This document shows, in pieces, positions 7,557-60,082 of a stretch of 64,000 bases of DNA. This DNA comes from Spinacia oleracea. Taxonomy: Eukaryota; Streptophyta; Magnoliopsida; Caryophyllales; Amaranthaceae. Each line of letters opens with the position of its first letter. The first letter of the stretch is position 1. The translations under genes and the position numbers were made by a program. The stretch spans positions 18,500,001 through 18,564,000 of the forward strand of contig NC_079489.1 of the NCBI RefSeq assembly GCF_020520425.1, read 5' to 3'. The notes under the pieces were generated by a model, which was given only the letters and a program-made list of their open reading frames with translations, made no database searches and was not told the origin of the DNA.

Positions 7557-7592
7557 CTACCCCATCCCGATTCAAAGTTATCTCTAGCTGAA

Positions 7593-21225: not shown

Positions 21226-22142
21226 TAGATAGATATTGACAACTAACTTCCGTCAACTTTACTTACCTATGTTTAAATAATGCAAAGAGAACATATCCTT
21301 AAGCTCTATTTAGTTCAAGTAATCTAAGTTGCACAACAAAAGTCAAGTTCAACAAAAAGTTTAAAAGTCCAGCTTGTTTTATTCAACTTATCTTGTACAG
21401 TTTATGTTCGTGATAGACTTGACCTAAAGAGAATAAATTTCAAAGTTATGCACAATACGACTCAAAAGGGAAATATGTGTTCTAAGTTGTAGGTCATGCC
21501 TAACTCCTATTTATATCACAAAATTCATTAAAAAAAATATATACTGTTACATAGACCAACACATTGGACATGACAAAACACAAATAAACAGTTGAAATTT
21601 AGCATAACACGAAAGATCAAGCCATTTAATGTGTGGATCAGATCCGGCTCGAGCATACCAATACAAAGCACACGAGCTTAACACGAGGTTCGTACGGACC
21701 AAAGCCATCCTTAAAGTATTATTAACCAATAGAGTGCCCATTATGGTAGCTAAGAAGCACATTTGCACACCAAATGGTGAGTAAACGTAATAATGTTAAA
21801 GAAAACAATGAAACCTGAGTTACCTAACCCATTCAATTCAATTCAATAAACAAGAGTTTTCTGTTTGAAGTACATACAAAATACCCATTCAAATCCATTA
21901 CCACAAAGTTTTCTGTCTTCTGGGGTGCATTGGTCATGGTCTTGCATCTCTTTGCAGATTCACCGCCATTTTTGAGCTAAACGCATAGATCTTGCATAAA
22001 AATTCCTTTGGTACTTCCTCCCTAAATAATTAGTGAAATTTAACACTTTGTTTTAGTTAGATTAAACCACTATTTCTTCGACAAATCATATTCTTACACT
22101 AATTCCAATTACATGTAAAACACATGTTGCCGAAGACGAATA
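21226..22142. other. Gene-free stretch spanning the end of duplication copy 1
   Basis: No gene is supported. Copy 1 of the large duplication ends at 21867. Bases 21868-22142 are unique in the window. A minus-strand frame at 21547-21768 has no recognisable domain. Confidence 0.5.
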
Positions 22143-27147: not shown

Positions 27148-27162
27148 GTTTGGTATCAAGAG
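27148..27162 (+). other. Primer-binding site
   Basis: GTTTGGTATCAAGAGC follows the LTR directly. TGGTATCA-AGAGC fits the initiator-methionine tRNA 3' end, apart from one extra A relative to the usual TGGTATCAGAGC. Confidence 0.8.
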
Positions 27163-27376
27163 CAAAGGTTCTGGACCATAAGTGCTAAACCTTACGGGTT
27201 TTGGCACGAATAGAATTCATTAGGCTTTAAGTGAAGAATTTTAAGGAATGAGTTAAAAAGAATGTTCTAAAATCTTGCTAAGTTAAAATGAATATGAGTG
27301 TGAGTGTAGGAACGAGATCAAAGGGATTATTTTATATTATTATTTCGCTTCAATCTGATAAGATATGTTATGCAGA

Positions 27377-30300: not shown

Positions 30301-31903
30301 TGATATTCAATATCATCCCGGAAAGGCTAACGTTGTTGCAGATGCATTAAGTCGGAAGTCTCACCTAAATTCTATCCTAACTTTTTCCCGAGTCAACCGA
30401 GATGATCTACAAAAGATGGAAATTGAGTTTATCAAAGGAAATGCTTGCTTGAATGTGTTGGTAATGAAGCCAACTTTGATTGATGAAATTAAGGAAGTGC
30501 AATGTAAGGACTTGCAATTAGAAAGAATAAGGAGTGAAGTGGAAAATGGGAAGTCACCTGGTTTTGTCATTCAAGAGGATGGCACGTTAAGGTTTCAGGG
30601 AAGATTATGTGTGCCTAATGATGAGAAGTTGAAAAAGAGAATCTTAGAAGAAGCTCATAGTTCACCATACTCGATTCACCCTGGAGGAAATAAGATGTAT
30701 AAGGATTTAAGGCAAATGTATTGGTGGAGCAACATGAAGCAAGAAGTGGCAGAGTATGTGGCTAAATGTTTGACATGTCAGAGAATCAAGATCGAGCATC
30801 AAAGACCAGCAGGTTTGTTGCAACCTCTGGATGTGCCAGAATGGAAATGGGATTCAGTTTCAATGGATTTTATCATAGGATTACCAAGATCAACCAAGGG
30901 AATGAATGCTATTTGGGTCATTGTTGATCGATTAACAAAGTCAGCGCATTTCTTAGCCATGAAGAACAATTCGAGTTTGGATCAACTTGCTGAACTATAT
31001 GTGAACACTATTGTGCGATTTCATGGAGTGCCTAGTTCTATCGTTTCTGATCGTGATACGAGGTATCAATCAACCTATTGGAAAGAATTGCAGAAAGCTC
31101 TTGGGACGAAACTTAACTTCAGTACCGCATTTCACCCAACGACTGATGGACAAACAGAGCGTACCAATCAAATTGTCGAGGATATGTTGAGAGCATGTAT
31201 TTTGGATTTTCAAGGAACCTGGGAGAAGTTTCTACCTATGGTTGAATTTTCGTACAACAACAGTTATCAGGCCACTATTGGTATGGCACCTTACGAAGCA
31301 CTTTATGGAAGGAAATGTCGTACACCATTATGTTGGAGTGATATCGATGAAGCACGTGTTATAGGACCAGAATTGATTCAAGAAACTACTGACAAGATTC
31401 GTTTAATCCAATCAAGAATGATGGCAGCACAAAGTAGGCAAAAGAGTTATGCCGACCAACGAAGAAGACCACTAGAGTTTGAGGTTGGAGATCACGTATT
31501 CTTGAAAATTTCGCCAACAAAAGGAATAATGAGATTTGGTCAAACAGGAAAGTTGAGCCCAAGATACATCGGGCCATATGAGATATTAGAAAGAGTAGGT
31601 ACAGTAGCATATCGACTAGCTTTACCAACCGACTTGGAAAAAGTGCATAATGTGTTCCACGTGTCGATGTTAAGAAAATATGTTCCTGATCCTAGCCATG
31701 TGATTACGCATGAACCCTTGTTATTGCGAAATGATTTGACTTACGAGGAGAAACCAATTGAAATCCTAGAACGAAGAGAGAAACGACTTAGAAGCAAAGT
31801 AATTCCAATGGTTAAAGTCTTGTGGGCCAATCACTTGACATCTGAAGCTACATGGGAAGTCGAAGTGCAAATGAGATCGAAATATCCCCAATTATTCGTT
31901 TAG
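27377..31903 (+). CDS. Gag-Pol polyprotein with C-terminal chromodomain
   Basis: One uninterrupted frame of about 1,508 residues from MSTID (an in-frame ATG at 27365 is 12 bases upstream). In order: Gag ([13 protein letters not shown]), two CCHC knuckles (CAKCGRRGH near 28260, CFRCGSHDH near 28325), protease (DSGASHS, about 28578), reverse transcriptase (CIDYRELNK; active site FIDDILIYS near 29580), RNase H (SDASKNGLG). Then integrase with its HHCC zinc region (CLTCQRIK near 30775) and catalytic core (SMDFIIGLP), and finally a chromodomain ([14 protein letters not shown], about 31825). The chromodomain is the mark of chromoviruses and is thought to bias integration to particular chromatin. 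No stop or frameshift is present, so this copy could be active. Confidence 0.96.
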
Positions 31904-32047
31904 AAACGATAAGATGTATGAATTCTAAAATATTATGATGTTATTCCCGCCAAGTTTATATAGCAAATAGGATGATTAAGTATGACATGTATAATTTCTA
32001 AGAATGGCAAGTTCAACTGAGCTCCAGTTTCGAGGACGAAACTTTTT

Positions 32048-32062
32048 CTAAGGGGGTGAGGA
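32048..32062 (+). other. Polypurine tract
   Basis: CTAAGGGGGTGAGGA immediately upstream of the 3' LTR, the usual primer site for plus-strand synthesis. Bases 31904-32047 are a short untranslated region with nothing else visible. Confidence 0.85.
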
Positions 32063-34778
32063 TGTAATACCCTGAATTTTTAAAATACGGTTTACTATGC
32101 TTAATAATTCTATTTAATTTAATGTCTATTATTAATCGTTTTAAATCTTAATTCCAGACGCTATTTTTTTTTTATAATCTTACTTAACTCGGAAATTTTA
32201 ATATTTCAGTCGTAAAAATACTTCGATTTTTATAATTCAATTAGTTTTTTTTTTTAAAATTATAATTATTTCCGAATTATCTTTTAAAGCTTAATTAGGG
32301 AGTAAAAATTCTGAAATTTCTCTAGCAATTCACAATTTTCAAGATATCCTTATTCTCCTAAATAAGCCAAAGTTAGTTTGTCTCCTTCCTTCTTTCTTCT
32401 TCTGCTTCACGCAGCTTTTGCCATGGAAGTCAAACTTCCCTTTTACACTTGTCTCACACATTCTTACAATTGATCCACGTATCCTTGCCTAACTCCCTTA
32501 GTCACCAGAATTGCAGGTTTTTCTTCACATTTGTCATTCCAACCAATCTTAACTGAGTCAATGAACACCAATTCACACTAGAAATAGCTCTCAAAATAGG
32601 CAGAAAATGAGAAGAATCAAACTCAAAATCGTGAGTAACAATCAGTTTCAACCTCATTGAATTCCAACAAAACTAAACACAATTCAATTTCACTTCCTGC
32701 TTTTCTGTAATTTAAACCACCACCACCAACGACCACCGTCTGCCTACCACCACCGTGACCACCATCGATAACCACCTTCGACCACCACCAACACAGCAAC
32801 CACCTTCGACCACCACACCTCCCTCACCCTCTCCCTTCCACCACACGCACCCCCTGCCCTCTCCCCTGCTTCCTCTTTCCCCTCCTTCGGCGCGCCACCA
32901 GCGTCGCAGCCACCACACCAGCCCACTCCCCTCGCCTGGTCAACTCATTTCCCCCACACTTCCCGGCGAGCTACACGACCACCAATCGAAACACCCTTCT
33001 CCAAAACTCCCCTGCTTCCCCTTCGTTTTCGCACTCCCTCCTCCTCTCTCACGCTGCACCACCGCCGCGAAACACCACCCACCTGCACCGGCGTGACCTT
33101 GTTGCGCCGCCCGGCCGTCCGTCGCTCCTTCTCCTCGCGGCTCTTCATCCCCTTCGTTGCTTCCCTGTTTCGGCCCCCCCTCCCCCTGTTCTTGACCCAG
33201 GAAACCGAAAGCAACAAAAAAAAAAAAGAGGAGAGAGAGAGAAAGCCAATCTCTAAATTTTGGAGCCTTGATTTGTTTTTCAAACCTAACTCCAAATTGG
33301 GCCACATTTCATTTGGGCCTTGGGTAAGACTAAATCTGAATTTTCAGATTTTTAATTTGTCAATACTTATGGTTTAATAATTTTTACAAAATATTTACTA
33401 ATAAAAACTGTTTATTATTTTTCAGATTTTATTATCAACTTTATGAGAATAAAGATTCTAGTTTTATTTATCAAAATGGAATTTAAACATTATTTACATG
33501 AAAATTTATTTATAAAATATATATGTAATTCAATTCAAAATTCGATTAATAATAATATTTTCTTTAAATGTCGAAATTATATTTTATTAAAATTCGTTAT
33601 TTATTTCATTACTTATAAAATTTATGATTTATAAAATATTAAATTTTATAATTATTTATCGATCTAGTACTAATTCAATTATTTACTATTTTTAAAGAAA
33701 TTGGACTCGGAGCTCAGGACGAACGAACCAACGAAAATCCTTAGCAAAATCGTGGAAGTGAGGTAACGGCTATTGCTAGTACCCGCAATCCCCTTATAAA
33801 TATGATTTATGAAATTATGACGTTATGATTGAATTTATGAATTAAATGTTTTGATGTGTTTTATGGATTGTGGGATGAAATATGATTTGTTTGAATTGTT
33901 TATTATAATATGATTTGATTGAGTTTTCTCATAAAATTATGTTTATGCAATGCTTTGAAAGAAATAATATGTTTATTGATCCCAGGATCAAAATGATGTT
34001 TTATGAGCTAAATGAGTTATGTTATTTCGAACTGAAATACAAGCCAAGGCTTGGTAAAATTATACAAAACATGATAAATGAAAGTGAAAGACCTGGTTTG
34101 TCTGGCGGTATATAAACTACCATCTTCCTATCTACCGGTCATGCATGCACCACGGACACCTGTCCACCCATGGATTACGAGCCCAGGCTCCCATGGTTTA
34201 TGAGCCCAGGCTCAGGGCCCAGGCCCCATGTTACGATGAGCCCAGGCTCTTATGGGCCCAGGCCCAGTGGAGAATTCCTTCACGGTTCGTACTTGCCGAC
34301 AACTAGCATGTTAAATTGCAAAGTTTATGAATGAAGTGAATATGATGTTTTATTAAATGTTTTACTTATTCTATTCTCCCTGTGTTATTAAATAAAATGA
34401 ATTGAAATGAATTTACGCTGCTAGAATAGTTCGTTACTGAGTCTTCGGCTCACCGTTTTGTTTTCCGTTTTAGGTACTGCGGGGAATGATGGGCACGAGT
34501 AGTGGCGAGGAGTTTCACTTTAATATTATCCACCTAGTTTATGTTTACGGTTCTAATAGTTTAATAAGTTTTAATTAAAGACTTTAGTAAGTTATGTACT
34601 TTCATCTTGGTAATATAAAAGATTATATATATTGTTTTGGAGTATTTAAAGGCTTATGATTGATGTTTGCCTTGTAATTTCCGAAAAGGAAGTTACGGCA
34701 GGTAATGTCCCGACCAATTAGGTTAATTCCGCTGCTAATTATGCTTTAAATTATTGAATTAGAGGTCGGGGCGTTACA
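32063..34778 (+). repeat. 3' LTR of the Tekay element
   Basis: Nearly identical to the 5' LTR; differences seen include poly-T and poly-A lengths, AAATCCAATC versus AAAGCCAATC, and TTGTAAAG versus TTGCAAAG. It contains the same C-rich block and the same dyad cluster. It is followed by the ATTGA target duplication. Confidence 0.95.
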
Positions 34779-35615
34779 ATTGATGATAACGTCTTTGCTA
34801 ATTTCTTACTATCTGTTGGGAACGGTAATGAACCTACTGTTTCAGATCAGATGATAAGGTTACCCACTGCCATGATTATACCAACAGTGGCAGATAGTTC
34901 GATCGAGGCTTTGATCGACCAGGTCTTTCCAAATTTAAGTGAGCACGTTGGTGATGGAAATTTTATAGTTGAAAGGGCGATCATCACACCCCTGAACGAA
35001 GACGCTGATAGAATAAATAATAAGGTTGTCGAAAAGTTTCTCGGAGAAGGAAAAACGTATTATTCGTTTGATTCTGTTCCTGAAGATAAGAGAAATTTGT
35101 ATCAACAAGAGTTTTTGAATTCGATTTCTGCGTCGGGATTGCCTCCCCATGCTCTCACCCTGAAACCTGGGGTACCCTTAATGCTTTTGAGAAATATTGA
35201 TCCTAAACATGGTCTTTGCAATGGAACACGGTTGCTTTGCCATTCATTAAAGGACAATTTCATTGATGCTGAGATTTTAACCGGACATTCTAGGGGGAAC
35301 AGAGTGTTTTTGCCAAGAATTCCCTTGAAAACTGCTGAAGATATTAAATTGCCATTCGAGATGGTCAGAAAGCAATTTCCTGTGAAGTTGAGTTTTGCCT
35401 TGACTATCAACAAGTCTCAGGGACAAACTATTCCACATGTTGGGATATTCCTCCCTGATCATGTATTTAGCCACGGCCAGCTATATGTGGCATTATCACG
35501 AGGAATTTCAGAGAACACGACAAAGATCGTGGTAGAAAAGGGAAAGGTTCAAGGTTGTGAAGGCATATTCACTAAAAATATTGTGTACAAAGAAGTTTTG
35601 TTGTCTTATGATTAG
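34779..35615 (+). pseudogene. Helitron helicase fragment, copy 2, C-terminal part
   Basis: Continuation of the interrupted helicase, matching 15772-16608. It keeps INKSQGQT and QLYVALSR and ends at the same stop codon. One substitution changes NGFAN to NVFAN. It is separated from the N-terminal part by the retroelement. Confidence 0.92.
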
Positions 35616-35871
35616 AGATACGGAATTAAAGTATTATTTTTTATTTCCCAATTTTGTAATAAACGTTATTGTATTCTTGACATTGAGTAGTTTTTGTAAT
35701 AATAATTGATTTACCATATAGCTACGGACGAATTGAGACATGTGAATTTTATATATCGGAGTAATTAAATGTTTTCATGTACATAACTTTCTTTTCATGT
35801 GATATACCTATTCATACGTTGTGAATTTCGGTTTATGTAATTCTAATTTTATTCTGAACTAACTTTACAGG

Positions 35872-37904
35872 ATGACAGAGTACCATTATCCAACTTTTGA
35901 GCATTTATATCCTAGCGGGGTACAACGATATGATGTACGAGCCCGACTGATTCGCAATTATGATATTTTCAACTACAACCATAAAGGAACAACCAAGCAA
36001 ACATGGAAAATGATTTTTGTCGATGTTGAGGTAAATGACCTTACGCTTCATTCAAATTTTCATTGAATCTGAACTATATCATAACTTTTTCATGTGTTTC
36101 CTTTTGTAGGGTCAGGCCATACAGTGCAATATTTTCGGCCCCGCGATTGAAAAGTTTATAGGACGGTTTCAAGAGGGATTCATTTATATACTCCTTGCTG
36201 TACAAGTGATATTTGCTGAAGGGAAAAACAAAATTGTCCCCAATTGGAAACAGATGATCATCAAAGAAGAAACAAATGTGATACGTGAAGAGGAGGATGA
36301 CATTTCCATACCTTCATTCCACTACAATTTGGTTCAGTTGAACCGATTAAGTTGTCACATCGACTGTACTGATAGAGTTTATGGTACTTTTGTTTGCCTT
36401 TTTTCAATATTTAGTTATCATGCATATGTCGTTTATTAATTGAAACATTGATGATGTTTTAGATGCAATGGGATTGGTCCTATACGTTTCACCGGTTGAG
36501 AATATTGGTGTGGATTCATTTAAGCGAGACGTGGCAATAATGGATACAACGTAAGTCCTCTAAATTATTAAAATGTTAATTACAAATCGAATTTACCTTT
36601 ATTTCGATAAATTTGTCTTAATATTGTTTTAATTTCTACTTGCAGCTGGACTGTTATTAAATTAACACTTTGGAATGATTTTGTGCACGTTCTTGATGAA
36701 AATCTTAATCATGTTGACGTGGCACCAATCATTGTAGCATGTGGTCTGCATGTCAAGAGCTTCTATGGTACATCATCCAAATTAAATTATATAGTAAATG
36801 CTGTCTTTTTAATATGTAGTTTAAAGTATAATATCCAGCTGTGATAATATTTCTAATTGATAAATACAAACAGGTACATATCTTTCCACGGGATACCACA
36901 CTAGGGTTTATGTTAACCCGGTTAATGAAAAAACAACATCCTTATCTACATGGTACGCACAATCTCGCCAAATACATGTACAACATAACCTTAAGTATTA
37001 TGCTCACAACTTTTTTCACGTATAGGTATAAATCGGAAAAATTGGCAAAGATAAGGAGAGATTGGTTTCGTTCGTCGACTTTTTCGTTAAAGTCGTCGAT
37101 TGATATTTCTAACACTCCCCGTATCCGATTATCTCAATTTCCCAGCGTGAGAAAGGTATCGTTTTTAACCTTGAAGTTTGAGTGTTGTCAACAAATTAAA
37201 TACGATATTATGTACTTAATTGTCGGACTTTGCGTCTTTTTTTTGGTAGGTTCAATACTGTCGAGTTGTTGCATATGCATGTCGCGTTGATAGTGTTGAT
37301 AACATCATATATCAGGCATGCAATCGTTGCCTAAAAAAGGTTGTCATTTTTCAAGGACTACAAAAATGTCAATCTTGCAATCTCACCAACACTGTAACTA
37401 TCCCAAGGTAACTATCTAAATTTTTTTTATACTTAAACACACATTATATATTGGTAAATATCTATATTAATAAATTGATTTAATTTCGTTTTATAGGTTG
37501 CTTCTTCGACTTACCATATTTGATAAAAGTGGTAATTTGAAAGTCACAATATTACACGATCTTGCACAACACCTTTTAGGTTGTTTAGCTACTGAAATAA
37601 AATCAGTACTTCAACAGGTTTCAATCTAATACTCTAACAACATAATTATTTTAAAAATATTAGCTCATGTTGATTTTACATTTGAATATATTTTTTAACG
37701 TTCATGCAGCCTAATGGACGTAATCGAGTGATGGAAAAAGTATTTGCATGTTTCGGAAACAGAGCTTTTTCATGGGTGCTACATCCACCAATTGGAGATT
37801 TTAATCCTGAACATTCGTATACGGTTGGATATGTGTTGCATGTCGATTGGGCGGAGGAGTGCATGTGGTTAAACAAATATATTGCGAGCAAAAAAAGAAA
37901 ATGA
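35872..37904 (+). CDS. Helitron RPA-like protein, copy 2
   Basis: Same nine-exon structure as the first copy at a constant offset of 19,007: 35872-36030, 36110-36383, 36463-36550, 36646-36767, 36874-36952, 37026-37155, 37250-37407, 37497-37617, 37710-37904. All splice sites are kept and there is no stop. Visible changes are W to C in HIDCTDRVY (exon 2) and K to E in YKSEKLAK (exon 6). The zinc ribbon (ACNRC...CQSCN) is preserved. The frame is intact but the parent element is truncated and cannot move by itself. Confidence 0.82.
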
Positions 37905-38170
37905 TATTTACTATTTTGTATGTACTTCAATTTTGATTTTTCAATAGGATATGTTAGTTGTATCAAAATAATGTTAATTTTTTTTAATAGCTTTAAATTC
38001 GTCATGTAAGGCTACGAGTATTGTATGACCTCAATGTCGCAAAATATGGACTTTGCGAATGATTATTAGTGTCTAAAATTTGTAAAATTTCGCAAGCATC
38101 GCGTGCATGAAATAATAGGCACAATAAAGTTTCTAAAATTCACGCACGCATCGCGTGCATAAAATACTAG

Positions 38171-40877
38171 TAAAGTATATGGTGGGGGGTAGGTGTTAAA
38201 TGATCGGGTAATGATTTAAATGATGGGGGAGTACTAAGTGGGTATGACTATTGAAGTAAAGAGCGGGTGAGAATAAATTTATGTTTGAAACAGGTGCTGA
38301 AAGAGAAGAAAGTAAATTTATTTACATACCCTTAATTATTTTTGTCAAATTTTTAAATAAATAACATAACACATGGAATGGGGCAGTAACAGATCTATCC
38401 ATTATTAATTTTAATAAAAAGATTATCTATAAGCTCTATATTAATGGTAATTAATCATCTATAATTGTAATTTAGAATTGCAAACTTAATATTCATGTCA
38501 TAAATTGTGCATCTCACGGGTAAGATAACTAGTCATGACTTTGAGGTTGGTCAAGGTCTCCACACTCGTACGCATCTAAAATTCTAATCCCTATCCCGTA
38601 CCCACGATATGAAAGGTACTCACACCTCCCAATCTCCTTCTTAACAGGTAAAAAATAAAACTCATCCTCAATCTATCACCCACCCGTGTATCCACACTCG
38701 CCTCAAATACACCGATGGACTCAACATGTTTTTGGTAAGAGAGTTTTTAAATTTAAAATTCTACTATAGAGTCTTCTACAATTAGAATAATTGAGTAATG
38801 GAACAAAAAATTATAACATGTACTCTCTCTGTCCAAATTTAATCGTTGCAATAATCATTTTACGGTATTTTATGCGATAGGTTATTATAAGCTTATATAT
38901 TATAATTTCATAGAAAAATGGGTATGCTGGAAGATGGTGAGATTTTTTTATAGAATCAAGTAAAAGAGAGCCAAGTGAGAGAGTGACATAGCTCCACATC
39001 GATTTCTGTTATCCAAAATTGTGTGCAAAGATTTTTCATTAGATTACAATGTAAAATAAAGGCAAATATATTACCCATTAAATGATCAAAGAAAAAGAAA
39101 CAAATACTAAAAAAATAAAACTAAAAACTATTAAAATTATTTTTCATTTAAAAGATGAACTCTTAAATAACTGGATAAGTAGAAACTATAAATTCGAGAA
39201 AGAAAATATACAAAGTTATTAAACAATTTTTTTTTCAATAAGCATGTTTTACACAACCCTAAACTCCGCATGTTAGAAAAATTGTTCAAAAGTTCATACG
39301 AAGAAAATTAGATATAATCTTTAGTTAAAAGCATTTACATAGTTAAACAATGTAATACATATATTATATGACGAAAAATCTAAATTCTAGTACTAAAGTA
39401 AAGAAAATTAACATATAAATAGTTTGTTTCTTAGTGAAATTGAAAAAGGGATTTCAGATTGATTGACTTTTTTCTTAGAGAAATTAGAAAAAAAGGATTT
39501 CGAAAATTAGATTTTGATAGCGAGTAGAGAAACAATGTCGTTGAGTGGCTTATTTAGACTACAACAACGAGCGTCGTTCCACCATTTGGACTGCAATATA
39601 GTTTTTTTTTTGTTTTTTTTTTTTATTTTTTTTTATGAATTAAAATGGAGAGAATTAAGGAGTTTTGTCATCTTTCCAAAGTTATTAGCAATTTAACATT
39701 AACAAACATACATTATGAAGGAGAAAATTAAGGGGTAATTTTGATTGGCTTTTTGACTCTTTTTTTTTTTTTTTTTATACATAATTTTTTTTTTTTTGTG
39801 TCATTACGGTGGGTTACTTTGTTGTCATTAAGCATTTGGGAAAAAAATTCTTTTTTTAATTACTTGGCCTGATTTTGGTGGGATAAGTTAGCTGTAATTA
39901 GTATTTAGTAAAAAATAATTCCTTTCTTAATTTTTGACTTTTTGCCAGTTGTTACTTGTTGTTTCATCAGTGGCGTAATTTGTGGTTGGGCCTACGTAAT
40001 ATTTACAGTGATTAAGTTATTTTTATTGTAGCTTTCCTTATTTATTTCCGAGTGTTTCCCTTTATGGCGTTATTTACTGTGGCTATTGACTGATTTTCTT
40101 ATGTTCTTTTTTATTGTATTTAATACTTATTGTTAATATAATTGTGGTTAATAGAGGAATGTTAGTCTTTTCTATAGGGGATACTAAAAGTGTATTTACT
40201 AAAATAACCTCAGGTGTTCCCTTATAGAATAGAGATAGATAGATATTGACAACTAACTTCCGTCAACTTTACTTACCTATGTTTAAATAATGCAAAGAGA
40301 ACATATCCTTAAGCTCTATTTAGTTCAAGTAATCTAAGTTGCACAACAAAAGTCAAGTTCAACAAAAAGTTTAAAAGTTCAGCTTGTTTTATTCAACTTA
40401 TCTTGTACAGTTTATGTTCGTGATAGACTTGACCTAAAGAGAATAAATTTCAAAGTTATGCACAATACGACTCAAAAGGGAAATATGTGTTCTAAGTTGT
40501 AGGTCATGCCTAACTCCTATTTATATCACAAAATTCATTAAAAAAAATATATACTGTTACATAGACCAACACATTGGACATGACAAAACACAAATAAACA
40601 GTTGAAATTTAGCATAACACGAAAGATCAAGCCATTTAATGTGTGGATCAGATCCGGCTTGAGCATACCAATACAAAGCACACGAGCTTAACACGAGGTT
40701 CGTACGGACCAAAGCCATCCTTAAAGTATTATTAACCAATAGAGTGCCCATTATGGTAGCTAAGAAGCACATTTGCACACCAAATGGTGAGTAAACGTAA
40801 TAATGTTAAAGAAAACAATGAAACCTGAGTTACCTAACCCATTCAATTCAATTCAATAAACAAGAGTTTTCTGTTTG
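38171..40877. other. Gene-free flank, duplicate of 19164-21867
   Basis: Contains the same repeat pieces as copy 1, including the minus-oriented Helitron 5' terminus remnant near 40245. No gene is supported. It ends where unique sequence leading to the IQD gene begins. Confidence 0.8.
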
Positions 40878-47291: not shown

Positions 47292-47821
47292 TGTTGTGGG
47301 GTTTTTCCGGTGAGATACCTTGGAGGTTTTCCGGTAACTTTTAAGGATTTCACAAGATTGTATTTTTATAGAGAGAGAAAGTAGAGAGAAGGCAGAGCAG
47401 CAATTGCTCTTGAATGTATTGATTGTGACCCCTTTTTCTAGGGAAGTGGGACTATTTATAGTACTAGGATTTTGTGGGAATGACCTAATATTCCCTTTAC
47501 ATGATTGGCTAGGGTATGGGAGGAGGACATGTGTCCTTTCTCCTTACAATTCCCTGGCCCTTTTGGCAATAGTGGGCTTTTTGGGCCTATTGTGCTTATT
47601 CATACCACTTGGAATACCTACTACCTAGGCCCCTTTTCAGGTATAGGTACATTACATACATTTATACATTCTTAAATACAAATACATATACATTGTAAAT
47701 ACGCAGATTGATACTCATGCTGTGGTCTAGTCTTCGTATGGTTTCTGCTTAGGGGGCGTAATACGTGCCATGTGTCGCATCCTCATTGGTACACGAAGGC
47801 ATGGTAATTTTGCCCACAACA
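47292..47821 (-). repeat. 3' LTR of the Tat element
   Basis: TGTTGTGGG...CCCACAACA ends. A minus-strand TATAAATA is at 47453-47460. On the minus strand the LTR is preceded by the purine-rich GAGGGGCAAA. Confidence 0.92.
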
Positions 47822-47955: not shown

Positions 47956-47963
47956 TATATAGA
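47956..47963 (+). promoter_or_regulatory. TATA box of the antisense gene
   Basis: TATATAGA, about 30 bases before a likely start region near 47985 and about 135 bases inside the 3' LTR. A 5' exon, a donor at 48171 and an acceptor ending at 48375 follow in order, as in an ordinary plant gene. The promoter call is inferred from this arrangement. Confidence 0.6.
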
Positions 47964-48150: not shown

Positions 48151-48380
48151 TACTTCACAGATCCTTCAAGGTTAGTTTTCGCCTTTCTTCCTTGTTTTTG
48201 TTATCCCCTCGTCATTTTTTCCCTTTATTAGCGGCCGGCCTCCTAGTACTAGGTAAGGGTTTGAAGGTTTTAATTGAGATTTTTCCGCCGTTCGTTTTTT
48301 GTCGGGGTGGACGTCCAATCGCGTCTTTTTCTTCTTTGTTGGTCACTCCTAAGCCGTGCTTCGTTCACTATGCAGAAGGC

Positions 48381-51300
48381 ATGGCTAGAACCAAGCAAAC
48401 GGCAGATCCTACGCGCCTGCGCTTGCGGGAGGAAACATTCACACCCCCTAGGGAGAGATATTCTTCCACCGCCCCGGCAGCCGACGAAGAATATGCCGAA
48501 CTCTTTCAAGAGATCGATGAATATGTCGAGGTGGAGGAGCAAACGGCAAGCTCGTCAGGGGGTACAGCGAGCCAGGCAGTGGGGGAGTCGAGCGTCGCTC
48601 CATCGCCATCGGCCGACGAGGAGCAAGAGTCCGCTCCCCAGCCTATTAGGCCCAGAGGACGGGAGGAGGCCCAACTGCTTCCGTCGGAGATTCACCCAGA
48701 CATGGGCTGGATGCGGTGGCTAGACAGGCATGGAGCCCAGATGAGGGACGACCTCTGCGTGGGGGAGGGGTACCAGATGCGTGTGCCGGCCGGTCTGGAC
48801 TCGACCGTCAGCCTGCTTGCCGAGGGAGAGTTCCCAGTGTATGCCGCATCCATCAAGCTCGGCATGAGATTCCCTCCACACCCCTTCGTTGTGGAAGTGT
48901 TAGATGGTTTTAACATTGGGGTGGCCCAGCTGACCCCCAACTCGTGGGCTGATATCTTTGGCTATATTGCCAAATGTGCGCTGAACGACGTGGAACCGTC
49001 TTTCAACGCTTTTTTGCATCTGGTCTCCCTTTCTCGTTCCCCCAGTGCCGCCAAAGGGTGGTTCAATCTGAGCAGCCGTGGTACATACCAAACAGTGGTC
49101 GGCAAGCTCAGCAAATGGCATATGTGGAGGAAAAGATGGGTCGTGTTTTACACGGACGACCAGGAGATGTACGAGAGGATGAGCCGCTGGAATTGCAATG
49201 CCAACTATATGGACCGTGACGAGCCCCTCCCACCCCTTACTGCCGAGGAGTGGGATCAAATAATGGTCCTGTTCAAGGCCAACACTTACCACTTAACCGC
49301 GGACAAGACTTTCCATGTGCCGGCCGAGTGGTTGCCGCACATTAGTCAGTTTCGGAATGAGGCCTTTCTAGCGGCCGTAGGCTTAGGATATTCTATGACT
49401 CGAGGTTGTATGCCAAATTATGTGCCGTCCCGCGTTGGTCTATTCATTTTTTTCTAATTTTGGATTTATTTTGTTCACAGCGGAAGGGATGAGCAAGTTA
49501 TCGGCGGCGGATATTGGGAAGGGCGACATGACCGATTGGATGGCCGACATCTATGAGGCCAAGATGCAGAAGGCCAAGGCCGAGTTGGAGGAGAAGGTGA
49601 GTATTCTCTTAGGTTGTTGTCTTTGCCAGTTAAGCTTTTCCCGTCCAGTGCCTACAGTGGGCGTCTTTTTTAGTGACGAGCCGTTATCTTGGCGTGTGAC
49701 CCGTGTTTTCTAAGGTAGGCCTCGTCACTTTTTAATGACGGGCCCCTAAGTTAGTGTTTTTCTTGCGGTTGCCAAGGTGCGCCTCGTCACCTTTTAAGAC
49801 GGGCGTCCCTTTGGTGACGAGCCTTTTTTTTTTTTTTTGCAAGTGACTCGTGATTGATAGGGTACGCCTCGTCATTTTTGAGACGGGCGTCCTTTTTAAT
49901 GACGAGCCACTATTCTTTGAGTGACTTGCACTTGATAAGGTACGCCTCGTCATTTTCGAGACGGGCGTCCTTTTTAATGACGAGCCACTATTCTGTGAGT
50001 GACTTGCGATTGAAAGGGTACGCCTCGTCATTTTTGAGACGGGCGTCCTTTTGAATGACGAGCCACTATCTTGTGAGTGACTTGTGATTGAAAGGGTACG
50101 CCTCGTCATTTTTGGGGCGGGCGTCCTTTTGAATGGCGAGCCACTATCTTGAGAGTGACTTGTGATTGAAAGGGTACGCCTCGTCATTTTTGAGACGGGC
50201 GTCCTTTTGAATGACGAGCCACTATCTTGTGAGGGACTTGTGATTGATAAGGTACGCCTCGTCATTTTTTAGACGGGCGTCCTTTTGAATGACGAGCCAC
50301 TGTCTTGTGAGTGACTTGTGATTGATAAGGTACGCCTCGTCATTTTTTAGACGGGCGTCCTTTTGAATGACGAGCCACTGTCTTGTGAGTGACTTGTGAT
50401 TGATAAGGTATGCCTCGTCATTTTTGAGACGGGCGTCCTTTTGAATGACGAGCCGCTATCTTGTGAGTGACTTGTGATTGATGACGAGCCACTATTCAGT
50501 GAATGACTTGTAATTCATCACGAGGCCCAATATCTGACTGTCCTTTACGCTCTTTTTCTTTTTAGCAAGCTAAGGACGCGGCTAAGGCGTCAGGGAAGAA
50601 AAAGGGGACGACTCTGTCCCAATTGAAGAAAAGGGCCGTGCCAGCTGGCTCGGAGACTCCGAGTACCTTCAAAAAGCCCAAACATATACCCCGCCGTCTG
50701 GTGAAGAAGGGCGAGTCAAAGGTTGCTGAGGGGGGTCGCCCTGATGACGATGAGATTGGCGTGGACAAGCCGTCTCTGGTTGTGGACTTGGTGTCCAAAT
50801 CAAAGTCTGGTGGGCATCCTGACGAGTTGGAGGACCCTCTTTCGGGAATTCCGGCCGACGTCCGTTCCCAGATTCCTGCGGAGGTGGCCCGCCGAGCTAG
50901 GTCATCGGGCGGTAAGTATTATTCGAACGTCGTTCAGAAGTATCGAGCCTCCTCTGGCAGTTCTTCTTACTCTCCGCGTCATCCTAAGGCCGTTGTTTTT
51001 CCTATAGCTAAAGACAAAGGGAAGGATGCTGCTGCTGCAGAGGACGAGAACGTACCCGCTACTCCTCACTATTCGTCAAAGGATAGGGTGGCTATATGCC
51101 GTAAGGTATTTAAGGCCGTCCCCGCAGAGTATGTTGCTTCTCTTCCTGGCCGCAAGACTGACGCCCAGTTTGGTGCAATCCAGGCCACCCTACTCGACGT
51201 GAGTCTATTTCCCACTTTGCTTGTACTTGTTTTTTCTTTTCAAGTCATTTACTAACATGTAGCTCCTTTTGCAGTTGTTCTGCCGCATGGAATTCTGCAA

Positions 51301-51589
51301 GAGTTGGAAGACGCGCACTGCTGAGGAGCTCAAAGCTCAGGTGGCTGAGTCCACCCACCATGGCGACTATGCATTCAAATCCATTGAAGAGGTCCGCCTG
51401 CAGATGCAGACGACCATATACCTTCAAGCAAAGGAGGTAGCTTCATTGAGGTCTGACAAGGCCGAGCTGCTTAAGAAGATCTTGGCGCAGGACAAAGACA
51501 TGGTGACAATGGTCGAGGAGGCCAAGACAGCGGCGGCGGAAATACGGACGCTTCAGGACCAGTTGCGGGAGTACCCTCAGGTCAAATAG
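48381..51589 (+). CDS. Antisense gypsy-type-transposon-domain protein with histone H3-like N-terminus
   Basis: Exons 48376-49404, 49481-49596, 50566-51198 and 51275-51589 (phase-compatible GT-AG) give about 695 residues. A leader intron (48171-48375) ends five bases before the ATG. The protein begins MARTKQTA, identical to histone H3 up to residue 7 of the mature tail, then diverges (DPTRLRLREE). An acidic low-complexity stretch follows. The central region (about 110-300; FPPHPFVVEVLDGFNIG, LTPNSWADIFGY, GWFNLSSRG) resembles the domain called putative gypsy-type transposon. Then come a lysine-rich segment and a helical, coiled-coil-like end. A TAG at 51587 truncates it. A relic frame with one frameshift (near 51615) and another TAG (51754) continues to a TGA at 51865. 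The role is unknown. An alternative first donor near 49437 is possible. Confidence 0.8.
49780..50500. repeat. 78-base tandem array in intron 3 of the antisense gene
   Basis: About nine copies, with successive TACGCCTCGTCA words at 49863, 49941, 50019 and 50097 (exactly 78 apart) and more degenerate copies on both sides. Each unit holds GCCTCGTCATTTTT and the inverted AATGACGAGCC around GACGGGCGTC, so each can fold. Because 78 is divisible by three, a 177-codon minus-strand frame runs through it. That frame is a by-product of the repeat. Confidence 0.93.
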
Positions 51590-51867
51590 GCGGCTGAGGA
51601 AGCCGAGCATCTTCGGGGGAGCTGGAGACGGCCAGGTCGCAAGTTCGCACCTTGCGTGAGCGTCTTCTGGAATCCTATGATCAGGGGGAGCAAGCGACCA
51701 AGGACGCTGTGAAGCACGCCTGGGAGAGCCACATGCCAGAGTATGATCTCGCGTAGTTCCAGCGGCGATTGGAACACAGTGCCGCTGTGTTGGCTGCTGA
51801 GCGTCTCGGTCAGCCGCCCCCTGAGTTTGTACCTTCTGATGATGAGGACGATGCGGCTGCTCCCTGA

Positions 51868-52139: not shown

Positions 52140-53390
52140 GGCTTAATCAATAGGTATGGTAGCCAAGGTGCAACTGAGTATACACTAAGCACGTTGGTGC
52201 CGCAGGCAACTGAGCATGCGCTAGGCACTATTGTGGTCGTCTCTTTCTTTGGCGAGCGTGTCTATAACGATGTTGATTGACGCAAGTCAGTCAATAGGTA
52301 TGATTGCCGCTAGACATGCTCGTCAAATGGGCTGGGCGGCCAAACGTTCGTGCCGCCGAACTTTTGAGCAAACAACCTTTGTTTCAAAGTTATTGGTGCC
52401 GCAGGCAACTGAGCATGCGCTAGGCACTACTGTGGTCGTCTCTTTCTTTGGCGAGCGTGTCTATACCGATATTGATTGACGCAAGTCAATCAATAGGTAT
52501 GATTGCCGCTAGACATGCTCGTCAAATGGACTGGACGGCCAAATGTTCGTGCCGCCGCACTTTTGAGCAAACAACCTTTGTTTCAAAGTTATTGGTGCCG
52601 CAGGCAACTGAGCATGCGCTAGGCACTACTGTGGTCGTCTCTTTCCTTGGCGAGCGTGTCTATACCGATATTGATTGACGCAAGTCAATAAATAGGTATG
52701 ATTGCCGCTAGACATGCTCGTCAAATGGACTGGACGGCCAAATGTTCGTGCCGCCGCACATTTGAGCAAACAACCTTCGTTTCAAAGTTATTGGTGCCGC
52801 AGGCAACTGAGCATGCGCTAGGCACTACTGTGGTCGTCTCTTTCCTTGGCGAGTGTGTCTATACCGATATTGATTGACGCAAGTCAATCAATAGGTATGA
52901 TTTCAGCTAGACATGCTCGTCAAATGGACTGGACGGCCAAATGTTCGTGCCGCCGCACATTTGAGCAAACAACCTTCGTTTCAAAGTTATTGGTGCCGCA
53001 GGCAACTGAGCATGCGCTAGGCACTACTGTGGTCGTCTCTTTCCTTGGCGAGCGTGTCTATACCGATATTGATTGACGCAAGTCAATCAATAGGTATGAT
53101 TGCCGCTAGACATGCTCGTCAAATGGACTGGACGGCCAAATGTTCGTGCCGCCGCACATTTGAGCAAACAACCTTCGTTTCAAAGTTATTCGTGCCGCAG
53201 AGCTTTTGAACAAACAACCTATGTTTCAAAGTTGTTCATGCCGCTGAGCTTTTGAACGAACAACCTATGATTTAAGGTTATTTGTGCCGCTGAGCTATTG
53301 AGCAAACAACCTATGTTTCAAAGTTGTTCATGCCGCTGAGCTTTTGAACAAATAACTTATGATTTAAGTTTATTTGTGCCGCTGGCACTT
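52140..53390. repeat. 199-base tandem array between the convergent genes
   Basis: TATGATTGCCGCTAGACATG recurs at exactly 199-base spacing (TGATTG at 52301, 52500, 52699, 53097; TGATTT at 52898), with a partial unit at the left. From about 53190 it gives way to shorter related units built on GTGCCGCTGAGCTTTTGAAC. The array occupies the space where the gag-pol and antisense transcripts would end. Such 3' arrays are known in Tat elements as seeds of satellite DNA. Confidence 0.95.
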
Positions 53391-53759: not shown

Positions 53760-56700
53760 TTAGACGAAATACTTCTTGAGATTGTCGGCATTCCAAGTGC
53801 GCAAAATAGGCCGGCCCTGCATGTCTTGAATGTGGTATGTTCCATCTCTAACCTCATCATAGATCTCATAAGGTCCCTCCCAAGTGGGCGTCAGCTTACC
53901 CTGTTCGTTTGCTCGTCCTGTGGATTCCATTTTCCTGAGGACAAAATCTCCCACTTTGAGCACTCTATTAGAGACTTTCTTGTTGTATTCTCTTGCCATT
54001 CTTATCTTGTACAGCTGTTGTCTGAGCGCTGCATTTCCTCTAACCTCGGGCAGGAAGTCCAGGGCTGCTTTCATTGTCTCCCAGTTAGCATTTTCGTCAT
54101 ACAGCATGACTCTCAACGTTGGTTCACACATTTCTATGGGTAGGACAGCCTCGGCGCCATAGGCTAGCAAGAAGGGTGTTTCACCGGTTGAATTCTTAGC
54201 CGTGGTGCGGATGGACCATAAGACATTTGGCAGCTCATCAGCCCATAGACCTTTGGCTTCGTCAAGCTTCTTTTTCATTCCTTCGGAGATAATTTTGTTG
54301 AACGCCTCTACCTGACCATTGGCTTGGGGACGTCCGACTGATGCAAAACAAGTGTGTATGCCGTGATCTGCCAGCCACTCTTTCAGCTTAGGCGTCTCAA
54401 ACTGGGGCCCATTATCGATGACGATAGCCTGTGGAATCCCAAAGCGAGTCATGATGTTCTTCCAAATGAATGCTCTCACATCAGTAGTTTTTATGTTTTT
54501 GAGCGCTTCTGCCTCCACCCATTTGGTGAAGTAATCTACAGCAACGATGACATAACGCCTTCCTCCTGGTGCGGCCGTAAATGGGCCTAGAAGATCCATC
54601 CCCCACTTAGCAAATGGAATTGGGCTTGTAATGGGTGTCAGAACTCGTGCCGGTCGGTGTATTAGGTGAGAAAAACGCTGGCATTTGTCACACTTCTTGA
54701 CCAGTGAAATTGCGTCCTCCTTAAGAGTCGGCCAGTAATAGCCGGTTCGAAGTGCCTTTTCAGCCAAAGCCCTTCCACCAATATGCGAGCTGCACAACCC
54801 CTGATGAAGGTCTTCTAAAATTTCCTGCCCCTTCTCAGGTGTTACACATCTTAACAAAGGACGGGAGTAGGCCTTTTTATAGAGGGTGCCGTTCCACATT
54901 TCAAACCAAGAGCATTTCTTCTGAAGTTTTGCCGCTTCCCTTGAGTCTTCGGGCAAGACTCCATTTATTTTGAAGTTTACTATGTCATCCATCCATGTGG
55001 ACGTCCTGTCAAGAGTTTCCACCTCCATTTGCTCAACACTTTTGTGCTCTTTTACCTCCCAAAACACGTGCCGAGGGGTATCACAAGACGCGGAACTTGC
55101 CAATTTTGACAGGGCATCAGCTTGGTTATTTTCCGAGCGAGGGACTTGCCTTACTTCAAAACTTTTCAGTGGCTCTACTTCCTGATGGACGGCCTACATG
55201 TATTTGACCATAGTCGGATCCCTAGCTTCGTAGGTCCCATTAACTTGGCTCACAATCAGTTGGGAGTCAGATAGTGCTACAATCTCCTCGACGCCTGCCG
55301 CCTTACACATTTTAATGCCACAAAGCAGGGCTTCATATTCCGCTTCATTATTTGACGCCTGGAAGTTAAATCGCATAGCATACTCAAAAGTATCTCCTTC
55401 TGGGGAGTGACAGATTATCCCAGCTCCACATCCATTCTGTGTGGATGAACCGTCTACATACACTGTCCACATCGTGTTTGTATTCTTGGCAAAGTCTGGC
55501 CTCTTCATTTCAACAATAAAGTCGGCACATGCCTGCCCCTTGACAGCTTTCCTCGGCTCATAGGTGATATCAAAGGCGTTCATCTCTATTGCCCAATTCA
55601 GCATTCGTCCTGACGCCTCCAGCTTTGTGAATGGCAGTTTGAGCGGTTGATCTGTGTAGACCACTATTTTGTGAGCTAAGAAATAAGGACGGAGCTTTTT
55701 GCTGGCCATGAACAGAGCCAAGCCAAACTTTTCCACTGTAGGGTATCTAACTTCAGCATTTTGAAAAACATGACTGACAAAGTATACCGGCATCTGTATT
55801 CCCTCCCTCTCTGTCAGTAGAACGGCACTCAACGAGTGCTCGGACACGGCGAGATACATGTACAAAGTCTCTCCTAGCAAGGGGCTAACAAGTCGAGGCA
55901 AGGTATGCAAGTGCTCCTTTAATCTGACCAATGTCGCCTCGGCTTCGTCCGACCATTCAAACTTGGCCTTCTTTCTGATTGCCCTAAAAAAGTAGTGGCA
56001 CTTGTCTCCAGCCCTGGAAAGGAATCTGCCCAGGGCGGCCAAGCAACCTGTGAGCCGCTGGACCTCCTTCACTGTCTTTGGTGAGCTCATATCAATTACT
56101 GCCTGGATTTTGTCTGGGTTGGCTTCAATTCCTCTTTCATCAATCAAGAAACCTAAGAATTTGCCTACCGTCACCCCGAACACACACTTCTTAGGATTCA
56201 ACCTCATGTTGTAAGCTCGAATAGTCTCAAATGTCTCCCTGAGATCAGTTATGTGCGCCGCCCTCAGATTACTTTTTACGATCATATCATCAATATAAGC
56301 TTCAATATTTCTGCCGAGCTGCTTAATGAACACAGTGTTAATAAGACGCTGAAAGGTGGCCGGTGCATTCTTTAACCCAAACGGCATCACATTGTAGCAG
56401 TAAAGGCCTTGTTTAGTAAAAAATGACGTTTTTTCCTGGTCGTCAGGCCACAACGGAATCTGATGAAACCCTGAGTATGCATCCATAAAGCTCATCATAG
56501 CATGCCCTGCTGTAGAGTCGACGAGCCGGTCAATCTTGGGCAATGGGAAACTGTCCTTGGGACATGCCTTATTGAGGTTGGTGTAGTCAACACACATTCT
56601 CCAAGTACCATTAGGTTTTTTGACGAGGACCACGTTAGCAACCCAGTCGGGGTACTGACTAGGCTCGACGAACCCTGCCTCCATCAACTTTTGTATTTCC

Positions 56701-59522
56701 GCGGCTGCCGCCTGATTTCTATCTTCCCCATGGTTCCTTTTCTTCTGACGAACCGGTTTGAAGTTTGGGTCCACATTCAGCTTATGGACGGCCACAGCAG
56801 GATCAATACCCGGCATTTCATCCACTGTGAAAGCAAAGATATCTTCAAATTCTCTCAAAAGGTGGACCAACTCTGCCGCCAGCGGGTCGTCAGGAGAAAT
56901 CCCGATGGGCACTACTCTGTCAGGTTTATCTGTGTTTAATACCACATTGAAATGAGCCCCAACAGGCTCTGGGCGTCTCTCTTCCATGTGCCCTGCTGAG
57001 ATAGTTAATGTTTCTTTGACGATCTTGGGTTGTGTGTCGCCACATTTTCGTTTGTTTCCCGATGTCCCTTTCTCTTCACCCGTCCCCCATGCTTCTGGAC
57101 TCAAGGTGGTTAGGTAGCAATCTCTAGCTTGTTGCTGGTCACCATGTATAGTGCTGACACTCCCATCGTCACAAATGAACTTAAGAAGCATCAGATGAGT
57201 CACAATGACAGCCTTTGCCCTATTCAAGGTGGGACGCCCCAAGATGATGTTATATGCCGTCAGGTCTTTCACTATGAGAAAACGGACGTCCATTTGTCGA
57301 GATTCCTTTTTATTTCCCATCCTCAGAGGAAGGGCAATTATGCCGACTGGGTGGATGATACTACCTCCGAAGCCTATAATGGGATAGTGGATTTTCTCAA
57401 TCTTTGAGGAATCATGTTGCAGCCGATTCAAGCACTCTAGACTAATTATGTCCGACGAACTTCCTGTATCAACCAAAATACGCCTAACCCTCAGATTAGC
57501 AACTTTTAACTCAATTACCAAAGGATCGTTATGCGGGGTGGAGATTTTCCCACGGTCGGCCTCGCCGATTTCCACTTTTGGAAACGGGTCAACTGTGGCC
57601 TTGCCGGACAGCATCACTTGCCCCAATCGCTTGGCATAATCCTTCTGGCCCCTCATGGTCGGCCCGCCGGCGGCCAATCCTCCGGAGATGACTGCTACGC
57701 ACTCTGGGTCGGTACGATTCCCATCTTCCTCAGAGGGAGGGGATTTGTTTTTCTTGTAGAAGGGTTTGCCAGAACCTCCCGTGTTCCTGCTGATATAACT
57801 CTTTAAGAATCCCTTGGCGGCTAGGCCGTCCAATGCCCTTTTCAAGCTCTTACATTCTTTGGTGTCATGCCCAATGTCACTGTGAAAGTGACAGTACAGT
57901 TTTGGGTCCCTACTTTCTGGTGGCGACTTCATGGGAAATGGACGATCAATGTCATATTTGGACCCGACGTCCATCAGAATTGTGTACATGTCTGTGTTAT
58001 ACTCAAATCGCTCCCGATCATAAGTTCTGGACCGTTTCTGGCCTGCCGCCCCGGGAGCCCTGTCTGACTCTTTTGCAATAGCCCACGTCCCGTTAGGCCG
58101 GCTCTTCTTTTCGAATTTCTCCTTTTTTGCCGCCGGCTCGGCGGTATCACTTCCTCTGGGATCTTTCGGGACGCTGCAAATCTCTGTTGCATGGATGAAG
58201 GCCTCGGCCTCATCCAGCACTTCTGGCATTGTTCGGACGCTTTTCTTTACCAGATCAAACTTGAAAGAGCCCTTTTTAAGCCCTCGAATGAAGTTATCGA
58301 ATGCAACACCATCTGGCAAATCCGGAATTTGCCCTGCCTCTAGATTGAATCTCTTCACATAGCTCCTCAGAGACTCGTCTTTCCCTTGCTGAATCCTACT
58401 CAGATGCATGCTCGTCTTCTTTTCTTCCTTGTGAGCCATGAACCGAGTAGAGAACAATAGCTCGAGCTCCGAAAAAGAGCGAATAGTTCCGGCTGGAAGT
58501 CTCTCGAACCACTTAGATGCTACTCCTTTGAGTGTGCCCGGAAAATACTTACACCAGGTTGAGTCAGTTGTTCCTTGGACATACATGTGATGCCGGTAAA
58601 CCAAGAGGTGCATGTCTGGATCTGTGGTCCCATCGTAAGCATCAATGTTGGGCGGCTTGACTTTGGGTTCCCTCGGGGCTCTCATGATGGAGTCTGCAAA
58701 AGGGGTGGTGTGTCCTAGGGCCATGTTGGACACTCCCTCCTGAATGTGATACACAGGATCTTGACGCCTTGAGTAAGGTACCCGCTGGGAAGACTCGCGT
58801 CCGCGAGTTTGACGGGTTGGACGGGTGACCCCTGGGCGCGCCTGGCTCAGATGCATATAAGTTGGATGAGGGAGAGGTCTATCCGGCATGACGGGGGTTG
58901 ACCCAGTGTCAGAAAGTTCAGACTCAGAGCCAGGAAATTGCTCTGCGCGTGGCTGCTCACGTCCTCGGGACGTTTCTCCAATCAGCCGCCGTGGCAGTCG
59001 GCGTGGTAGGTAAGACATTGCCTGATTGGGCTGACTTGCTGGCGGCTGCCTCCTCAGGTCCTCGCCTGTCTGCCTGGTCCAGACGTTTGGGGGGCGCAAA
59101 GAAAGTGTTGGCCTATTGCTTGCCGGCCCCTCCTGATTTGCAGCCACAGTAGTGGTGTAGATCAGCATACTCTTCTGTACCTCAGCATTAACTGTCTTTC
59201 CCATATCAGCTTGGAACTCAGCCAAAATAGCCCGAAGAGCACCCACAGAGACAGGCATATCAGGGTTTTCCTCTATTACTGTATCCGCCCGAGGATCCAG
59301 GTGCCCTCCAGGAGGGGTGCGATTGGCCTGGTCGTCCTCCTCGCTGAGCACCTCTACCTCGGCAGCGTGACGAGGGGTGTGCCCGGCCGCAAATATACGC
59401 GCGGCATCTCCAGTGATTCTCGTGGCCGGCGTATGATGTTCAGTCGGCATTTCTCTTTCGAGGGGTGGCCGCTCTACCCGCGTAGGCCGCCCAGTATAGT
59501 TGTCCTGTCGTTGATCTTCCAT
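53760..59522 (-). pseudogene. Tat gag-pol, one in-frame stop
   Basis: One frame from the ATG at 59522 (MEDQRQ) to 53760, broken only by TAG at 55194-55196. Order: Gag capsid region (KWFERLPAGTIRSF, RSYVKRFNLEAG), protease (LVDTGSSSD, about residue 682), reverse transcriptase (CVDYTNLNKACPKDSFPLP; active site YIDDM near residue 1073), RNase H. Then the additional archaeal-type RNase H (YVDGSSTQNGCGAG, NNEAEYEAL), and after the stop its end (NNQADALSKLA) and integrase (CDKCQRF, GMDLLGPF, VIDNGPQFE). The second RNase H places it in the Tat clade. The stop lies inside that domain, so integrase would not be made from this copy. Apparent starts further upstream are in the primer-binding site. Confidence 0.92.
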
Positions 59523-59553: not shown

Positions 59554-60082
59554 TGTTGTGGGGTTTTTCGGTGAGATACCTTGGAGGTTTTCCGGTAACT
59601 TTTAAGGATTTCGCAAGATTGTATTTTTATAGAGAGAGAAAGTAGAGAGAAGGCAGAGCAGCAATTGCTCTTGAATGTATTGATTGTGACCCCTTTTTCT
59701 AGGGAAGTGGGACTATTTATAGTACTAGGTTTTTGTGGGAATGACCTAATATTCCCTTTACATGATTGGCTAGGGTATGGGAGGAGGACATGTGTCCTTT
59801 CTCCTTACAATTCCCTGGCCCTTTTGGCAATAGTGGGCTTTTTGGGCCTATTGTGCTTATTCATACCACTTGGAATACCTACTACCTAGGCCCCTTTTCA
59901 GGTATAGGTACATTACATACATTTATACATTCTTAAATACAAATACATATACATTGTAAATACGCTGATTGATACCCATGTTGTGGTCTAGTCTTCGTAT
60001 GGTTTCTGCTTAGGGGGCGTAATACGTGCCATGTGTCGCATCCTCATTGGTACACGAAGGCATGGTAATTTTGCCCACAACA
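59554..60082 (-). repeat. 5' LTR of the Tat element
   Basis: Matches 47292-47821 with a few substitutions (for example TTTCGCAAG versus TTTCACAAG) and one base fewer near 59563. The minus-strand TATAAATA is at 59714-59721. It is followed at the right by target duplication ATAAC. Confidence 0.93.

Follow-up and report, generated by a model that had tools for sequence, protein, structure and literature searches.

Does a spinach retrotransposon protein that begins like histone H3 imitate the H3 tail, or does the likeness have some other origin? The question is raised by a plus-strand gene in the window, by which we mean the whole 64,000-nucleotide stretch of Spinacia oleracea DNA that was analysed. 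A sequence-only reading of the window had claimed that this gene starts exactly like H3, and we confirmed that its first codons read MARTKQTA from position 48381, residues 2-8 of the product being identical, in the correct register, to A1-A7 of H3, whereas D stands in place of R8 immediately after them. The N-terminal match to H3 is thus real, and it is its meaning that has to be weighed.

A TRP28 gene antisense to a Retand-type element

The gene lies in an LTR retrotransposon with Ty3-type anatomy on the minus strand of the window, for which LTRs, gag and pol domains and a target-site duplication (ATAAC, 5 bp, at both ends) are all present (Table 1). Between the integrase and the 3' LTR, antisense to the element, sits a plus-strand gene with the TRP28 domain (PF04195), which a domain search placed at residues 154-217 of the product (E 3e-11). 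The element sizes calculated from the coordinates (LTR 530 bp, internal region 11,732 bp, pol-3' LTR interval 5,938 bp) all fall inside the ranges that excerpts of PMC11963269 give for Retand (315-1,194, 7,380-12,869 and 2,933-6,566 bp, respectively); the spinach Retand cluster reported there has other sizes (LTR 425, internal 10,719). By its anatomy and domains, which match the description in PMC11963269, we assign the element to the Retand/Tat type, in line with the sequence-only reading, which had placed the antisense gene in a Tat element. According to passages of PMC6337768, Ogre/Tat is the most abundant Gypsy lineage in spinach repeats.

Antisense genes of this kind are described in parts of PMC11963269 and PMC7264820. 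The Retand ORF4-type TRP28 genes resemble ours in being antisense between pol and the 3' LTR, in carrying PF04195, in having tandem arrays nearby and in possessing a candidate promoter of their own, and gene23 of the maize element Grande is another antisense ORF at the same place (PMC7264820). In the same excerpts, the antisense protein of Grande is reported to be nuclear (PMC7264820), and TRP28, a predicted DNA-binding domain of unknown function, is found in 97% of the surveyed clusters of Retand elements with recent activity (PMC11963269).

Table 1. Coordinates, within the window, of the element and of its antisense TRP28 gene.
Feature	Position	Strand	Remarks
3' LTR	47292..47821	-	530 bp; differs from the 5' LTR by 5 mismatches and 1 gap; target-site duplication ATAAC at flank
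TATA-like box of the antisense gene, candidate	47956..47961	+	sequence only
Leader intron, predicted	48171..48375	+	AAG/GTTAGT ... TATGCAG/; splice consensus
Codons 1-8, MARTKQTA, H3-like tip	48381..48404	+	translation
Codons 9-17, DPTRLRLRE, remainder of conserved block	48405..48431	+	genome pattern matches and pN/pS
Coding exon 1 of TRP28 gene, predicted	48381..49404	+	PF04195; end by splice consensus
Coding exon 2, predicted	49481..49596	+	identical peptide in P0002
78-bp tandem array	49723..50482	+	within predicted intron 49597-50565 of the antisense gene
Coding exon 3, predicted	50566..50911	+	similar peptide in P0002 and P0004
Coding exon 4, predicted	51008..51198	+	splice consensus and comparison with spinach proteins
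Coding exon 5, predicted	51275..51589	+	ends at a stop absent there from P0002
199-bp and 46-bp tandem arrays	52194..53384	+	between TRP28 gene and integrase
Integrase ORF	53760..55028	-	rve and Integrase_H2C2 domains
gag-RT-RNase H ORF	55194..59522	-	Retrotrans_gag, RVT_1 and RNase H domains
5' LTR	59554..60082	-	529 bp; PBS-like TGGCGCC next on minus strand

Start codon and exons of the TRP28 gene

The TRP28 frame opens at the ATG at 48381 with the N-terminus MARTKQTADPTRLRLRE (longer translation, MARTKQTADPTRLRLREETFTPP) and stays open to 49457, past the predicted end of exon 1 at 49404. This ATG had been taken for the probable true start, and our observations point the same way. First, it lies five bases after the predicted acceptor TATGCAG, which ends at 48375 (candidate donor at 48170/48171). 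Second, the leader exon, from the TATA-like box to the donor, has no ATG, and the sole other ATG ahead of the start (48370) is inside the predicted intron. Two spinach proteins, P0002 and P0003, are annotated from the same start, with MARTKQTA and MARTKQKA, respectively. The annotation of P0001 has a longer start, back through the leader, and those of P0004 and P0005 begin at methionines further on. Both the leader intron and the promoter were called from the DNA, not from RNA.

Our three protein searches yielded these five Spinacia oleracea proteins, which are the closest relatives of the TRP28 product (84-98% identical), and one further protein, P0006. Since the last coding exon stops earlier than in P0002, the window copy probably makes a shortened protein (region 51275-51860). 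The predicted structure of the first exon product has a mean pLDDT of 32 (four sequences), too low to be informative. On the opposite strand of the 78-bp array (49723-50482), we also noticed an open frame of 177 amino acids.

The match to histone H3 and its chance expectation

Four H3-type genes of the same genome (L014, L015, L020 and L021) give MARTKQTARKSTGG. The window has 2433 ATGs, counting both strands; a single one opens a frame matching ARTKQTA at 7/7 residues, and the next best reaches 4/7. From general residue frequencies, we estimated the chance of ARTKQTA at ~6e-9 per random N-terminus, which corresponds to ~36 expected occurrences among 5.8 billion proteins. The H3 match is too short for detection by database search, and comparing the 40 N-terminal TRP28 residues with PDB chains gave no match, not even to H3, with E values of up to 10 admitted.

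TRP28 copies of spinach fall into two clades

By searching the 894 Mb genome for the MARTKQTA codon pattern, we found 353 matches, H3 genes included, and none with the reversed control; among the 100 MARTKQTA sites listed, two further matches have H3-type codons besides the four H3 genes read. The DPTRLRLR codon pattern gave 351 matches (control 0), and the first 30 of them, taken unselected in genome order, carry exactly MARTKQTA in 24 cases, the remaining six having MARTKQTT (3), MARTKQMA, MARTKKTA and MAKTKQTA. A third codon pattern, FPPHPFVV, which lies in the domain and distant from the tip, gave 650 matches (control 0). Sampling by this core pattern is independent of the tip sequence and covers only copies with those codons, so that further TRP28 clades with other codons at this place may exist. 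All samples of copies were drawn among the first 100 matches listed, and hence come from the first contigs of the genome.

We assigned the first 30 FPPHPFVV matches manually, 18 of them to the clade of the window (clade A) and 12 to a sister clade (clade B). Fifteen of the 18 unselected clade A copies have MARTKQTA, one has MARTKQTT, one MARTKQMA, and in L102 an indel falls within the tip. In contrast, ARTKQ occurs in 0/10 of the readable starts of the unselected clade B copies, which follow M[AVT][RQP]I (L086 and L096 were unreadable). Then, 20 further core matches were picked mostly by clade B codon type, 5 being of clade A type and 15 of clade B type. In the former group, L106 has MARTKQTE and L117 has MARTKQTA, with no readable tip in L104, L105 and L107; in the latter, the start was unreadable in L108, L109, L110 and L112, and L118, being identical in location to L087, was counted once. 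Altogether, clade B comprises 20 distinct readable loci (10 unselected), 0/20 with ARTKQ, whose tips are MARIEDEEQFEGESSSP, MVQIDEDPCFEGESSSA, MVRISKDLDFEGESSYQ and similar. Since 14 of these 20 distinct starts have M-A/V-R, it is mainly TKQTA that is special to clade A.

In a protein tree based on 75 residues, clades A and B stood apart with a support of 1.00; L087, L099 and L102, which have stops in the core stretch, were left out of the tree and assigned to their clade by sequence. For L078, L091, L097, L100 and L102, which are broken between tip and core, the tip was read directly. P0006, encoded on a 1,396-base contig and the only relative outside the spinach records, grouped with clade B, and its start is probably MVRISANPDFEDE and not ARTKQ. 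Among the copies read, the H3-like tip is restricted to clade A and is not common to related TRP28 proteins: as a general feature it is not supported, unrelated starts such as those of clade B and P0006 being what the sequence-only reading had named as evidence against its claim. These comparisons cover one plant genome, that of spinach. Two scans of viral_contigs returned, respectively, no match and 38 stretches fitting the pattern, and a scan of genome_contigs returned 137 such stretches, none of them a relative in either set.

The acceptor TATGCAG is present in most clade A copies read and absent from L011/L053, L024 and L066. Two clade A copies, L102 and L072, have indels inside the tip codons. 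The clade B tip (MARIEDEEQFEGESSSP and variants) is itself shared and acidic, and looks conserved (L079, L087-L089, L092-L095, L099, L101, L111, L113-L116, L119-L123).

The tip is constrained as part of a longer block

Divergent clade A copies encode the same peptide by different codons. For seven of them that were selected by codons 9-16, pS is 0.514 and pN 0.059 over codons 2-8 (ratio 0.114). Selection by codons 1-8 gave 11 divergent copies, with L010 retained despite a frame break in codons 14-17 and L016 despite a stop at codon 16; in this set, pN/pS is 0.119 for codons 9-17, 0.323 for residues 18-100 and 0.149 for the core (101-341). A nine-copy set including the indel copy L072 and also L056, whose core comparison is apparently frame-broken and which is not one of the seven, gave ratios of 0.215 (codons 2-8), 0.315 (residues 18-100) and 0.187 (core). 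Over all 43 copies, which are mostly close, the ratio for codons 2-8 is 0.227. The 19 clade A copies chosen by the core are likewise mostly close; among them, 8 synonymous and 3 nonsynonymous changes fall in codons 2-8 (pS 0.080, pN 0.010), and codons 9-17 have a pS of 0.239 and a pN of 0.073, the latter being inflated by the frame-broken tips of L091, L106 and L117. Each copy was compared with the window copy and the copies are related by descent, so that all these ratios are descriptive and not tests. Of the 45 tip-region loci, 15 (L059-L073) were picked, most of them for having no upstream MARTKQTA or for their place beyond the MARTKQTA list; L063, which fits the second pattern by chance, and L072, because of its tip indel, were left out of the counts of 43 copies and 44 rows.

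Together, these data indicate that the tip is constrained about as much as the core, whereas the rest of the first hundred residues evolves fast. Even L011, the most divergent copy, with a core pN of 0.188, still has the tip MARTKQTADPTRLRLR. The conserved unit nevertheless measures ~17 residues and extends beyond the 8-codon H3 match, codons 9-17 being constrained too; constraint in the non-H3 part of the block means that the H3-like residues do not stand out from it. The comparison of the tip with the codons that follow it, which had been proposed earlier, shows protein-level conservation in divergent copies (0.11 versus 0.32 for residues 18-100), over a block of ~17 residues rather than 8. 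Being kept in one branch and different in the sister branch, the tip resembles a working part, and the comparison of copies makes a linear motif, maintained in one branch only, the probable reading. An early reading based on four close spinach proteins, according to which the tip is not specially conserved, was overturned by the divergent copies.

Changes within the tip are unevenly placed. Across the 43 copies, the equivalents of H3 A1-K4 are changed in 2/172 cells, T3 and K4 never, and those of Q5-A7 in 12/129 (Fisher p 0.0013, assuming independent copies, which they are not); counted over the nine distinct octamers, there are 2 and 7 changes, respectively. The clade A copy L067 has Glu2, and P0003 has Lys at the H3 T6 equivalent. 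As H3 readers hold A1-K4, this pattern fits recognition by such a reader without proving it. In the PHD-H3 crystal structure described in an excerpt of PMC5415848, H3 A1-K4 form a strand that pairs with the PHD finger.

H3-tail mimicry and its alternatives

That the clade A tip is a selectively maintained motif working as an H3-tail mimic is, on the sequence comparisons, our preferred explanation, which we rate a little below an even chance. Ala at position 2 of a protein predicts removal of Met1, and such processing would leave a free ARTKQTA end, as in H3. A host reader or modifier of the H3 end could then dock on the free Ala1-Arg2-Thr3-Lys4, the candidates being a PHD-finger protein, a VIM/UHRF1-type protein or an H3K4 enzyme. 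While the TRP28 part would hold the DNA of the element, the tip would recruit the host factor to that DNA or, alternatively, keep it away from chromatin; the mimicry reading would also imply a nuclear location and a benefit to the element. According to parts of PMC8594673, VIM proteins are the plant relatives of UHRF1 and mostly have a PHD finger. We are more doubtful of the specific version in which one Ty3 clade would carry a decoy H3K4 tail, bound and perhaps methylated like H3, that recruits or titrates readers against silencing or for guiding integration. Several observations weigh against mimicry: Glu2 of L067 should block Met removal, P0003 carries Lys in place of H3 T6, the sister clade keeps a different, acidic tip, and such N-termini are expected by chance at the number given above. 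If mimicry were true, this would be a case of a plant retroelement imitating a histone at the N-terminus of one of its proteins, and if the decoy version were true, it would be the first function assigned to TRP28 proteins. The H3-like tip of clade A set against the tip of clade B offers a concrete, cheap and discriminating handle on the binding partners of TRP28.

An equally serious explanation, which we likewise place just short of even, is that the 17-residue tip is a real conserved motif whose likeness to H3 is coincidental, for instance a basic RNA/DNA-binding, nuclear-import or protein-docking motif (R3, K5, R12, R14, R16). Since conservation continues beyond the H3 match, up to about residue 17, a role independent of H3 is just as probable as mimicry. 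Such a motif explains the ~17-residue unit and the clade B tip as well: constraint on codons 9-17 was found in the 11 divergent copies (only L010 being frame-broken there), and the recurrent, unrelated tip of clade B suggests that the family as a whole tends to conserve a tip, irrespective of which sequence that is. On the other hand, seven consecutive identities at the exact free H3 end are improbable by chance, and the least variable positions are those held by H3 readers, in copies that share ancestry. Taking M-A-R as given, as in many clade B copies, leaves TKQTA alone to explain, which is much less unlikely.

Two further explanations deny the tip a function of this kind or derive it from H3 itself. 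A chance match without special function, conserved merely by recent copying of the element, seems improbable to us. A shared tip means little among close copies (the leader intron of the window copy, read in frame, is identical to that of P0001 at 50/60 positions, and the exon at 91/107), and in the first four spinach proteins the tip is no better conserved than the remainder, but divergent copies with a pS of about 0.5-0.6 across the exon still retain it. Least probable is an origin by capture from an H3 gene followed by drift from residue 9 onwards, as the confinement of amino-acid identity to the first eight codons might suggest. Arg3 is encoded by AGA in 43 of the 44 clade A rows, window included, but by CGT in the four H3 genes read, which bears out the earlier claim that the gene is not a recent H3 fragment; moreover, no H3-like residues were seen in frame on either side of the tip, and the many clade B copies with M-A/V-R but not the rest suggest change in place rather than capture.

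Relation to known systems

The PCNA-associated factor PAF15 has its H3 mimic at its N-terminus, where its identity to H3 is shorter than that of the TRP28 tip. It is presented in passages of PMC8594673 as a non-histone protein whose H3 mimic domain is ubiquitylated by UHRF1 as H3 is, but PAF15 is a mammalian host replication factor and not a transposon protein. The same passages describe DNA ligase 1 as a non-histone protein with a short H3-like motif read by UHRF1 (PMC8594673); that motif is internal and H3K9-like, whereas the TRP28 tip corresponds to the free H3 end. Influenza NS1 is described as having an H3-tail-like sequence that engages the machinery recognising H3K4 marks (excerpts of PMC12937675), located at the C-terminus of the viral protein, unlike the TRP28 tip, which is at a free N-terminus as in H3. 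Finally, the integrase chromodomains of Ty3 elements also handle the H3 tail (PMC12786077, in part), but they read methylated H3K9, whereas the TRP28 tip would imitate the tail.

For the Retand antisense genes, a histone-like N-terminus is not mentioned, and in spinach the tip occurs in one of the two clades seen; the main text of PMC11963269 has 0 occurrences of "histone", "chromatin", "mimic" or "ARTK". In the portions of the open-licence PMC literature covered, PMC12937675 included, we found no mention of a histone-like end, nor, in such portions including the review of plant transposon mimicry PMC12085086, an example of N-terminal histone mimicry by a plant retroelement. The general idea is not foreign, since the transposon-derived proteins ALP1/ALP2 are described in parts of that review as interfering with a histone-modifying complex (PMC12085086).

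Other elements in the window

The window also contains a long Rep/helicase-type ORF region at 12398-40877, which we take to be Helitron-like and which is partly duplicated: 14219-15782 and 15770-21867 match 22876-24438 and 34777-40877 at 99.6-99.8%. Within 24432-34778, an ORF at 27365-31903, presumably Ty3-type, lies between direct repeats of ~2.7 kb that are 99.7% identical and are probably LTRs. This ORF and its repeats are located inside the second copy of the Rep/helicase-type region.
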